Assembly (NCBI RefSeq): GCF_019656655.1
Contig: NZ_BPMV01000001.1
Location: 2,976,001-3,040,000 of the forward strand
Length of the DNA stretch: 64,000 nucleotides
Direction of reading: 5' to 3'
Origin: Tsukamurella sp. TY48
Lineage (GTDB): Bacteria > Actinomycetota > Actinomycetes > Mycobacteriales > Mycobacteriaceae
The position numbers and the translations under genes were made by a program. Below are positions 13,651-16,044 of the stretch, in pieces; the first letter of the stretch is position 1; each line of letters opens with the position of its first letter. The notes beneath the pieces were generated by a model. That model saw only the letters and a program-made list of their open reading frames with translations, was not told where the DNA came from and did not search any database.

Positions 13651-14481
13651 GTGACTTCCACCACCTCCGAGGACGACCTGACTCTCGCCATCGACAAGGC
13701 GCTGCCGGACATCCGTGCCGCCTACGTCGAGGCGGGTGACGCATGGCAGCCCCACGATTACGTTCCGTGGGACGACGGTCGCAACTACGCCTTCCTCGGC
13801 GGCGAGGACTTCGCTCCGGCGGACGTGAAGGTGCACCCGGTCGTGGCTCACGGCCTGGTCCTGGGTCTGCTGACGAAGGATCACCTGCCGTCGTTCCACC
13901 GGCTGCTGGCGCAGCACCACCTCATCGATTCCGACTGGGGCAAGTTCGTCGGCCACTGGACCGCCGAGGAGAACCGCCACGCCATCGCGCTGCGCGATCA
14001 CGTGGTGGTCAGCCGCACGTTCGACGTCGAGCAGCTGGAGGCCTGGCGCCTGGAGGCCGTGACCCGCGGCTACCGGCAGTACGAGGGCACCCGTGACGAA
14101 CTCCACGTGGCCGAGCAGATCGCCATGGTGATGACGCACGAGGCGCTGTCCGCCGACTACTTCGACCGGCTCGCCGATTTCGCCGAGAAGGCCGAGGGCA
14201 CGCCGGCCGGGCTCGTGACCACGCTGCGCAAGATCGCCGCCGACGATCGGGTGCAGCTGCAGTACTGGGTCGAGCTGTTCACCGTGGCCCTGGACGTCAA
14301 CGAGGGCCACGCCAAGGACGCCCTGCTGGGCCAGGCGCGCGTCGTCTCGGCCATCGGCGCCGAGACCGCCGAGGGCCTGGACGAGTCGCGCCGCATCGTG
14401 GTGGACGCCGAGATCGCGACCGCCGAGCGCGACCGTGAGCTGATCAACGTGCTGCTCGCGCGCTGGGGTCTGGCCCTGTAG
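13651..14481 (+). CDS. desA2: Acyl-ACP desaturase DesA2-like protein
   Basis: A 276-residue ferritin-like protein of the plant-type acyl-ACP desaturase family, syntenic with mycobacterial desA2 (Rv1094). The first di-iron motif is present as TAEENRHAIALRD (about residues 108-120), and the next ligand helix is MTHEALSADYF. The second EExxH-type motif, normally DEARH, aligns with DDRVQ in KIAADDRVQLQYW, so Glu is Asp and His is Gln. M. tuberculosis DesA2 is also known to have an atypical metal site. The protein may therefore not be a conventional desaturase even though mycobacterial homologues matter for mycolate synthesis. The start is GTG 13651 by the leaderless -10 box. Confidence 0.9.
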   Translation: MTSTTSEDDLTLAIDKALPDIRAAYVEAGDAWQPHDYVPWDDGRNYAFLGGEDFAPADVKVHPVVAHGLVLGLLTKDHLPSFHRLLAQHHLIDSDWGKFVGHWTAEENRHAIALRDHVVVSRTFDVEQLEAWRLEAVTRGYRQYEGTRDELHVAEQIAMVMTHEALSADYFDRLADFAEKAEGTPAGLVTTLRKIAADDRVQLQYWVELFTVALDVNEGHAKDALLGQARVVSAIGAETAEGLDESRRIVVDAEIATAERDRELINVLLARWGLAL

Positions 14482-14504
14482 TACCGCCGTAACGAACTGT
14501 TCAC

Positions 14505-14542
14505 GAACGCGCCGCGCAGCCTCCGAGCCGCGTGGCGCGTTC
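14505..14542 (+). terminator. Hairpin after desA2
   Basis: GAACGCGCC (14505-14513) and GGCGCGTTC (14534-14542) form a 9-bp stem with a loop that can itself pair. There is no T run, so it may terminate weakly or simply protect the 3' end. Confidence 0.5.
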
Positions 14543-14591
14543 GGCGTTAGTTTGGCGGTGACGGATTGCGGGGAAGCATTTCGTCCCGGGA

Positions 14592-14691
14592 GGTTCCAAC
14601 CGTGACTGGTTCACCAGTTCTCACGAGAGGGCCGGCCCCGGTCCTCGTCCTCGCGGCGTAGCAGACCTACGCAGCGACGATGTTTGGAACC
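14592..14691 (+). ncRNA. Candidate structured RNA in the phoH2 leader (three-hairpin junction)
   Basis: GGTTCCAA (14592-14599) pairs perfectly with TTGGAACC (14684-14691), closing about 84 bases that fold into three further stems. The first is CGTGA/TCACG (14601-14605 and 14621-14625), capped by CTGG-TTCA-CCAG. The second is AGGGCCG/CGGTCCT (14628-14634 and 14639-14645). The third is GCGTAG/CTACGC (14656-14661 and 14667-14672) with a CAGAC loop. No coding frame fits the stretch. It ends 54 bases before the phoH2 GTG, so it is either a 5' leader regulatory RNA or an independent small RNA. I could not match it to a known riboswitch class by eye. Confidence 0.55.
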
Positions 14692-14745
14692 GGCCGGCCG
14701 CAGCTACACGCTTGCGTGGGCGCCGCGCAGGCTAGGAGCGTCACC

Positions 14746-16044
14746 GTGACCACCACTCGGACCTACGTTCTCGACACCTCCGTCCTGCTGTCCGATCCCT
14801 GGGCCATCACCCGATTCGCTGAGCACGATGTAGTGCTCCCGCTCGTGGTGATCAGCGAACTCGAGGGCAAGCGCCACCACGCCGAGCTCGGCTGGTTCGC
14901 CCGCGAATCGCTGCGCATGCTCGACGATATGAGGCTCGAGCACGGCCGCCTCGACCAGCCGATCCCCACCCCGGGCGGCGGCACCGTGCAGGTGGAGCTC
15001 AATCACATCGACCCGTCCGTGTTGCCGGTGGGTTTCCGCACCGGGACCAACGACGCCCGCATCCTGGCCTGCGCCCTGAACCTGCGCGCCGAGGGCAAGA
15101 ACGTGACGCTGGTGTCGAAGGACATCCCGCTGCGCGTCAAGGCCGGCGCCGTGGGCCTGACCGCCGATGAGTACCGCGCTCAGGACGTGGTGACCTCCGG
15201 GTGGACCGGTATGGAGGAACTCGAGGTGGCGTCGCAGGACATCGACGCCCTGTTCGCGAACGGTGTGATCGATCACGACGCCGCGCGGGAACTGCCCTGC
15301 AACACCGGAGTCCGGCTGCTGGGCGGCACCTCCAGCGCGCTCGGCCGGGTGACCGCGGACAAGCAGCTGCAGCTGGTGCGCGGCGATCGCGAGGCCTTCG
15401 GCCTGCACGGCCGCAGCGCCGAACAGCGTGTGGCCCTGGATCTGTTGCTCGACGAGTCCGTGGGCATCGTCTCCCTCGGCGGTAAGGCGGGCACCGGTAA
15501 GTCGGCGCTCGCCCTGTGCGCGGGCCTGGAAGCGGTGCTGGAGAAGCGGACTCAGCGCAAGGTGGTGGTCTTCCGGCCGCTGTACGCCGTGGGCGGCCAG
15601 GACCTGGGCTATCTCCCGGGCACCGAGAACGAGAAGATGGGGCCGTGGGCGCAGGCCGTCTTCGACACCCTCGATGGGCTCGCCTCGCCCGAGGTGATGG
15701 ACGAGGTGATGTCGCGCGGGATGCTGGAAGTACTGCCGCTCACGCACATTCGCGGCCGGTCGCTGCACGACTCCTTCGTGATCGTCGACGAGGCGCAGTC
15801 GCTGGAGCGCAACGTGCTGCTCACGGTGCTCTCGCGGCTGGGCGCGGGCTCGCGGGTGGTGCTGACCCACGATGTGGCGCAGCGCGACAACCTGCGCGTC
15901 GGCCGGCACGACGGCGTGGCCGCGGTGATCGAGAAGCTCAAGGGGCACCCGCTGTTCGCGCACGTCACGCTCACCCGCTCCGAGCGTTCGCCGATCGCGG
16001 CGCTGGTCACCGAGATGCTGGAGGAGTTCGCCCCCGGCGCCTGA
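14746..16044 (+). CDS. phoH2: PhoH2-type PIN-domain/PhoH ATPase
   Basis: A 432-residue fusion of an N-terminal PIN (VapC-like) ribonuclease domain with a C-terminal PhoH helicase-like ATPase, the PhoH2 architecture that in mycobacteria cleaves and unwinds RNA. The PIN part begins [16 protein letters not shown], where the first Asp is a metal ligand, and contains VISELE and the TNDARIL segment. The ATPase has Walker [14 protein letters not shown] (about residues 246-258), Walker [13 protein letters not shown] and the sensor stretch [23 protein letters not shown] 14746 is preceded by AGGAG at 14734-14738; an in-frame ATG at 14680 would run through the RNA structure and has no ribosome site. The mycobacterial gene is preceded by a small antitoxin frame; none is evident here, and a structured RNA occupies that space. 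Confidence 0.95.

Follow-up and report, generated by a model that had tools for sequence, protein, structure and literature searches.

A conserved structured RNA leader of phoH2 in Mycobacteriales that appears to occupy the place described for phoAT

The closest described system to the locus analysed here is the phoAT-phoH2 operon of mycobacteria, which has been presented as a 'type II toxin-antitoxin' operon (Andrews and Arcus 2015, as cited in the available parts of PMC7390352, PMC4826407 and PMC12038028). According to the same available parts, PhoAT is a protein that interacts with PhoH2 (PMC7390352; PMC4826407), phoAT, which adjoins phoH2, relieves the growth inhibition caused by PhoH2 (PMC4826407), and an M. 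smegmatis strain with a phoH2 deletion grew like the wild type (PMC7390352). For M. tuberculosis, the accessible tables of an RNA-seq study list a phoH2 5' UTR of 210 nt with UTR/CDS read ratios of 4.7 (exponential phase) and 11.9 (stationary phase) (PMC3207917), a pattern that would fit a leader transcribed more frequently than the gene behind it. MTS0858 was considered as the same RNA and rejected, as the accessible part of that study locates it between Rv1092c and Rv1093 (PMC3207917). A promoter SNP 5' of phoH2 in H37Ra (PMC2440308) was later contradicted, as far as the available text of PMC5393005 goes, and is not used as evidence.

In this study, we followed up the prediction of an unassigned structured RNA directly upstream of phoH2 in a stretch of 64,000 nucleotides from Tsukamurella sp. 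TY48, which is called the window throughout. The original prediction was right on this point: a cmscan of 14558-14745 against Rfam 15 gave no family at its gathering score, and at E values up to 10 only mir-339 was found inside the leader (19.3 bits, gathering score 60), which amounts to nothing beyond chance; a match to HBV_epsilon (15.3 bits, gathering score 45) lies 5' of the leader. A search of an open-licence library gave, among the papers listed, no report of a conserved phoH2 leader RNA.

The leader in the window

The gene order in the window is SHMT (serine hydroxymethyltransferase, 12278), a desA2-like fatty-acid desaturase gene (13651-14481), the leader and phoH2 (14746-16044, plus strand), whose product carries PIN_4 and PhoH domains by Pfam and matches the NCBIfam equivalog NF053827, 'RNA 5'-3' helicase PhoH2'. 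The phoH2 Shine-Dalgarno (SD) sequence AGGAG is placed at 14734-14738 on the plus strand, before the in-frame start, and AGGAG is found 5' of the in-frame phoH2 start in 78 of 80 named loci. As the phoH2 frame is open back to an ATG at 14680 within the leader (14680-14748), gene callers may place the phoH2 start too early here. DNA similar to positions 14560-14770 is present in all 16 genomes of the genus. A match to the Rfam family ASdes (RF01781, 45.2 bits) at 13969-14036 on the minus strand, antisense to the desA2-like gene, may mirror similarity between desaturase coding sequences rather than an RNA.

The region originally picked out, 14592-14691 (100 nt), has a minimum free energy of -51.3 kcal/mol, whereas its shuffles average -33.7 (z = -4.98; none of 200 as good), and its minus strand also folds well (z = -3.96). 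The perfect 8-bp closing stem that had been described, GGTTCCAA at 14592-14599 with TTGGAACC at 14684-14691, is present and encloses three hairpins. The region is indeed structured; its limits, however, capture only the middle of a leader of about 188 nt (14558-14745) lying 5' of phoH2 (14746), to which a hairpin on either side, P0 and P5, also belongs. The whole consists of the 5' hairpin P0, a P1 domain holding P2 to P4, and the last hairpin P5, with loop-loop pairing between P3 and P5.

All parts lie on the plus strand. A predicted -10 box, TAGTTT (14548-14553), precedes P0 with the TANNNT spacing seen in relatives, and P0 itself (14561-14584), predicted to be 5'-terminal, reads ACGGATTGC-GGGGAA-GCATTTCGT with one T.T mismatch in the window. 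The P1 5' strand, CGG-GA-GGTTCCAA (14587-14599), contains the sequence GGAGG (14589-14593) that serves as SD of a short upstream frame, and pairs with the P1 3' strand, TTGGAACC-GG-CCG (14684-14696), both in the computed fold and in an alignment of relatives, A1, introduced below. In the computed fold P2 (14601-14625) starts at the start codon of the upstream frame and is followed by P3 (14627-14646), whose loop GGCCCC (14634-14639) is the partner of the P5 loop, and by P4 (14647-14681), a hairpin variable in length and sequence that is short or absent in some Williamsia and in most of the Mycobacterium leaders inspected. A linker that is single-stranded in A1 (14697-14709; of the type CCAGCGA in many relatives) leads to P5 (14710-14732), GCTTGCGT-GGGCGCC-GCGCAGGC, with its loop at 14718-14724 complementary to that of P3.

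The lowest-energy fold of the whole leader (14558-14748, -97.9 kcal/mol) differs from the conserved fold, which comes to -84.8 kcal/mol with the loop-loop pairing not counted, or 13 kcal/mol above the lowest. In the lowest-energy fold both strands of P1 have other partners, the 5' strand pairing with the phoH2 SD and the 3' strand with the 5' strand of P3. No terminator-like site and, at a score of 30, no tandem repeat was found at 14400-14900 of the window.

Conservation of the fold and linkage to phoH2

Leaders were taken from the 80 named phoH2 loci, from loci found in genome searches and from 100 stretches fetched by the place of phoH2; seven leaders without a P1 anchor and two loci without a parsed start were left out before counting. 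Four alignments were used. A1 holds 47 leaders from outside Mycobacterium, not fitted to any model and with structure assigned by the author, drawn from 57 non-redundant leaders without the mycobacterial ATG pattern; the ten omitted were long or divergent (L102, L103, L161, L164, L177, L189, L190, L191 and L200) or degenerate (L282). A2 consists of 93 leaders, including Mycobacterium and other families, that matched the covariance model R1 among 100 author-picked loci, and is biased towards the structure because it was fitted to it. A3 comprises 46 non-redundant leaders of 84 distinct Mycobacterium leaders, unfitted and covering three helices, and A4 is a fitted Mycobacterium alignment of 48 sources in 49 rows, one row being a reverse-strand fragment of L245. 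Controls in which the structure was slid along the alignment correct for relatedness; the shuffles ignore kinship.

Compensatory changes among relatives, the lack of which had been named as grounds for giving up the prediction, proved to be abundant. In A1, 92.1% of cells are paired compared with 38.3-41.9% in the slid controls, double changes occur in 27 of 47 pairs, and none of 500 shuffles was as high on any measure. By helix, P0 has double changes in eight of nine pairs (93.9% of cells paired in the 47 leaders), P2 in six of eight (78.2%), P3 in three of seven (99.1%) and P5 in all eight (93.1%); in P1, with 92.5% of cells paired, double changes are seen in none of eight pairs in A1 and in five of eight in the fitted A2. 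Conserved bases lie in the P0 loop and on the 5' side of the P1 internal loop in A1. The fitted alignments gave 91.6% paired against 32.0-48.4% slid, with double changes in 34 of 40 pairs, for A2, and 89.6% against 28.8-45.1%, with double changes in 18 of 39 pairs, for A4. In the unfitted Mycobacterium alignment A3, 90.5% of cells are paired against 24.3-44.9% slid; double changes are found in only five of 20 pairs, a level reached by 22 of 500 shuffles, and the number of pair types was reached by 81 of 500. The structure within Mycobacterium is thus supported by these alignments, less strongly than outside that genus. Cells with G-U outnumber those with A-C by 232 to 27 in A1 and by 468 to 48 in A2, which places the selected structure on the plus strand, sense to phoH2. 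For the Williamsia, Gordonia, Rhodococcus and Mycobacterium groups, consensus folds computed by group recover P0, P3, P5 and a closing stem resembling P1; the 11 leaders of the Tsukamurella group are nearly identical and hardly covary, and their consensus folds differently round P1 and P3.

Loop-loop pairing is seen across genera, the P3 loop (of the type GGCACCC) being complementary to the P5 loop (GGGUGCC type) and the two changing together, as in GGCACC/GGTGCC, GGCGCC/GGCGCC, GGTGCC/GGTACC, GGTCCC/GGGACC and GGCATC/GATGCC. Among the 82 of 93 leaders whose loops have 6-8 nt, the longest run of pairs averages 5.21; in 2000 shuffles, which ignore kinship, the mean is 4.26 and the maximum 4.68, and when only the 29 distinct loop pairs are used, none of 2000 shuffles reaches the observed complementarity. 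A run of six or more pairs is present in 51 of the 82 leaders, compared with 26 on average in the shuffles. At least 16 of the 31 leaders without such a run, that of the window among them, have GGCCCC/GGGNGCC, which gives six pairs round one extra base, and seven others pair GGCCCC with GGTGCC and keep one mismatch.

Of the 76 distinct leaders that lack the mycobacterial ATG pattern, 75 have a TANNNT box ending 4-9 nt 5' of P0, where 4% would be expected from letter-shuffled upstream DNA, so that P0 is predicted to be the 5'-terminal hairpin with transcription starting at its base; the corresponding distances in Mycobacterium come from leaders selected on the box TAGCGT and are not counted as evidence. 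With compensatory changes, a sense-strand bias and a place between the predicted promoter and the start codon, we regard the existence of a conserved structured RNA as near certain.

An order-wide DNA similarity search gave mostly short, chance-level matches beyond the genus, and was replaced by fetching regions by the place of phoH2 and by covariance models. Model R1 has matches in 85 of 298 genomes of the order, one apiece. When match places were compared, 77 of these have phoH2 directly 3' on the same strand with a gap of -3 to 258 nt, and tblastn placed phoH2 directly 3' of seven of the other eight, the last lying at a contig end; 84 of 85 matches are therefore directly 5' of this one RNase gene. 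At the level of the class, model R2 found the element in 33 of 246 genomes, 14 of which lie beyond the order, and all 30 of the 33 matches that were assigned to loci have phoH2 directly downstream. Conversely, 97 of 100 phoH2-upstream regions chosen by their phoH2 match carry the element; 34 of the 100 had trained the model, and 63 of the 66 others match, some being close kin of training rows.

With the fast filters used, 213 of the 298 genomes of the order and 213 of the 246 of the class are without a model match, and phoH2 is present in 287 of the 298; in these genomes the element is either lost or too diverged for the models and filters. In L095, L108 and L235, phoH2 has a very short leader in which the element is seemingly missing between the promoter-like box and the SD, and model searches did not find it in L207, L282 and L283. 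Its absence from some lineages implies that it is dispensable there. L282 and L283 have a degenerate leader with extra sequence to which R2 gave no match, and in L161 P2 is gone and P3 shortened with P0, P1 and P5 kept. L077, titled Kitasatospora arboriphila NRRL B-24581, has the same leader as the Williamsia muralis leaders L078 and L084 and is probably a mislabelled or contaminated record.

The upstream frame and the mycobacterial phoAT region

The original prediction saw no antitoxin-type frame at the locus. This holds for a long frame; a short one, GTG...TAG (VTGSPVLTRGPAPVLVLAA, 19 residues), is however present at 14602-14661 on the plus strand behind GGAGG, and ends 84 nt before the phoH2 start. 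An SD with a start codon is found in 107 of 108 distinct leaders outside Mycobacterium, 30% being expected, and L161 is the sole leader without the start codon. The start lies 6-12 nt behind GGAGG (106 leaders) or GAAGG (two leaders) of P1 and is GTG in 91 leaders, TTG in nine and ATG in seven. Conservation of the peptide or of the frame was not found outside Mycobacterium: P3 is read in differing frames (frames 0/1/2 in 56/14/9 of 82 leaders, with three unassigned, and in 12/11/2 of 25 leaders), and the frames are 15 to 52 residues long, some being ended by the end of the stretch and many having 17-18 residues. Retention of the start codon in the face of a drifting peptide and frame suggests that it is the act of translation that matters. 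Measured against a leader-peptide attenuator, the leader has the upstream frame with a ribosome-binding site and lacks a conserved sensing peptide and an intrinsic terminator.

In most Mycobacterium leaders GGCGG replaces GGAGG, and an ATG lies 8 nt behind the TAGCGT box on which these leaders were selected. We take the frame that begins at this ATG to be phoAT by its place and its overlap with phoH2. Measured from this ATG to the phoH2 start, the distance has phase 2 in 45, phase 1 in 29 and phase 0 in 11 of 85 distinct leaders (two of them without the element), the frame stops short of the phoH2 start in 14 of the 85, and P3 is read in all three frames (58/13/11, two unassigned, n = 84). An open frame that is conserved and runs up to or into the start of phoH2, as expected of a PhoAT gene, is thus not what these leaders have. 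Of 35 single-base codon variants seen within codons 1-13 in 48 of the 53 distinct 5' ends, 12 are synonymous, compared with 23 of the 117 that are possible; the case for coding constraint on this frame was set aside as weak at best. L245 and L253, which we take to be probably of the M. abscessus group, carry both the ATG and the form CGGGAGG...GGTACCGACCG and so bridge the two groups of leaders. The contrast first drawn with mycobacteria, that an antitoxin frame stands in this position there, did not survive: the homologous RNA occupies the place described for that frame, and the mycobacterial 'antitoxin gene' region appears to be this structured RNA.

Control of phoH2 and relation to known systems

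The explanation that we favour, and consider somewhat more probable than its negation, is that the RNA is a cis-acting 5' leader that links translation of the upstream frame, folding and perhaps PhoH2 itself to the output of phoH2; the mechanism that follows is one that we infer. Where the upstream frame is translated, from GGAGG in most genera or from a 5'-terminal AUG in Mycobacterium, the ribosome would open P1 to P3 and break the kissing fold. Where it is not translated, the leader would come to rest in a form that reduces the output of phoH2. In the genera Tsukamurella, Gordonia, Williamsia and Rhodococcus the P1 5' strand could bring this about by pairing with the phoH2 SD in competition with P1; elsewhere termination, RNA decay or cleavage are candidate output steps. 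The likeliest signal would be PhoH2 activity, that is autogenous control, rather than a metabolite, as suggested by the linkage, in the genomes searched, to one gene and by the RNase and helicase activities ascribed to PhoH2 in the available text of PMC7390352. ACWWS, the word given in the literature as a PhoH2 target, is barely enriched in the leaders, with 65 occurrences against 50 expected from letter shuffling.

In 82 leaders of Mycobacteriaceae outside Mycobacterium, the probability that the phoH2 SD is unpaired is 0.29 compared with 0.46 in dinucleotide shuffles, pairing of the SD with the P1 5' strand has a probability of 0.53, and the openness of the SD rises from 0.29 to 0.49, the level of the shuffles, when the region of the upstream frame is held open (81 leaders). 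This pattern suggests, as far as folding predictions go, a switch worked by the upstream frame in that group. Mycobacterium itself shows no such predicted masking of the SD (0.33, with shuffles at 0.36), and in other families and orders the difference is in the wrong direction (0.44 against 0.34). A universal SD-masking switch was therefore discarded, as it fails outside the Mycobacteriaceae other than Mycobacterium, and the output step cannot be called general. As P1 and SD masking draw on one and the same strand, the conserved domain would depend on folding first, while transcription is under way, or on something that holds it in place.

Among the three roles that had been offered at the outset, riboswitch, autoregulatory target and RNA antitoxin-like partner, the linkage to phoH2 in 84 of 85 matches makes a cis-acting or autoregulatory leader the best fit. 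A metabolite or ion riboswitch, with an aptamer made up of P1, P3 and P5 that the loop-loop pairing closes, and with a ligand that governs access to the start of phoH2, would account for the multibranch fold with its kissing loop, the conserved bases of the P0 loop and P1 internal loop and the alternative pairing that involves the phoH2 SD. A riboswitch class commonly regulates a number of genes in one pathway, however, and the element occurs once per genome with one gene only in the 85 order-level matches (84 checked, one at a contig end) and has no Rfam riboswitch match even at E up to 10, so that we hold this reading to be unlikely. Also quite unlikely is a role like that of the RNA in type III toxin-antitoxin pairs, in which the leader, set free by processing, would keep the RNase of PhoH2 in check by binding to it. 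The linkage of the leader to a gene for a PIN-domain RNase would suit such a role, as would, in the accessible parts of the papers concerned, the M. tuberculosis leader reads at 4.7 to 11.9 fold above the CDS (PMC3207917) and the relief of PhoH2 growth inhibition by phoAT (PMC4826407); against it, the available text of PMC7390352 has PhoAT as a PhoH2-interacting protein and the M. smegmatis phoH2 deletion growing like the wild type, so that a strong toxin is not evident. Moreover, the leader has none of the tandem repeats that type III antitoxins have.

It is very unlikely that the region simply encodes the small antitoxin PhoAT, with the fold a by-product of GC-rich coding DNA. In agreement with such a gene, the ATG frame is in the phase able to overlap the phoH2 start in 45 of the 85 distinct Mycobacterium leaders, the proportion of synonymous codon variants is raised, and an interaction of PhoAT with PhoH2 has been reported (in the available parts of PMC7390352 and PMC4826407). 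However, the other 40 leaders are in the two other phases, in 14 of the 85 the frame closes upstream of the phoH2 start, each of the three frames occurs over P3, covariation of base pairs extends to the Mycobacterium leaders, if more weakly in the unfitted A3, and the Tsukamurella, Gordonia, Williamsia and Rhodococcus leaders examined are without the mycobacterial ATG frame. Least of all would we expect P3 (GGGCCGGC..CCGGCCC) and P5 to be palindromic sites of a DNA-binding regulator. P3 is a near-perfect DNA palindrome; yet helices besides P3 covary, P0 and P5 above all, the excess of G-U (232) over A-C (27) cells indicates selection on RNA pairs where DNA sites would give a strand-symmetric count, and the -10 box precedes P0, which puts the supposed sites downstream of the predicted start.

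A bolder version of the cis-acting leader that we favour is possible but in our judgement doubtful: that the kissing-loop RNA family is the true partner of PhoH2 and the PhoAT 'antitoxin' a misreading of this RNA. The reported relief of PhoH2 toxicity would then come from the leader RNA, acting in cis to lower phoH2 translation or binding PhoH2 as an RNA antitoxin, and the leader would be switched by being translated, in whichever frame, rather than by the peptide made. The present work describes a covariation-supported RNA family that Rfam 15 lacks, tied to a single gene, spanning an order of Actinomycetia and reaching at least one more. The gene, phoH2, encodes an RNase-helicase of poorly known function; the family would account for the prominence of the phoH2 5' UTR in the published M. 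tuberculosis RNA-seq, gives a concrete hypothesis for the control of PhoH2 and makes the PhoAT antitoxin claim directly testable.

The rne 5' UTR of Escherichia coli is an autoregulatory leader of RNase E and is thought to report the enzyme's own activity. The phoH2 leader resembles it in being the structured leader of one RNase gene, and differs in its upstream frame and kissing loop; it matches no Rfam family, rne5 included. Likewise, the RNAs of type III toxin-antitoxin pairs are structured and adjoin an RNase gene, whereas the phoH2 leader is without tandem repeats and its RNase is a PIN-PhoH protein. The uORF-containing leaders of M. tuberculosis, as far as the available text on the Mbox (PMC12810186) and the B12 riboswitches (PMC11260477) describes them, share with the phoH2 leader a structured RNA with a short upstream frame; they sense Mg2+ or B12, and in contrast the phoH2 leader matches no known aptamer family. 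The phoAT-phoH2 operon, as it is described in the accessible parts of the papers cited above, lies in the same place, with phoAT before and overlapping phoH2, and the mycobacterial leaders match the RNA models; unlike in that description, it is the RNA pairing that is conserved here, and not the reading frame.
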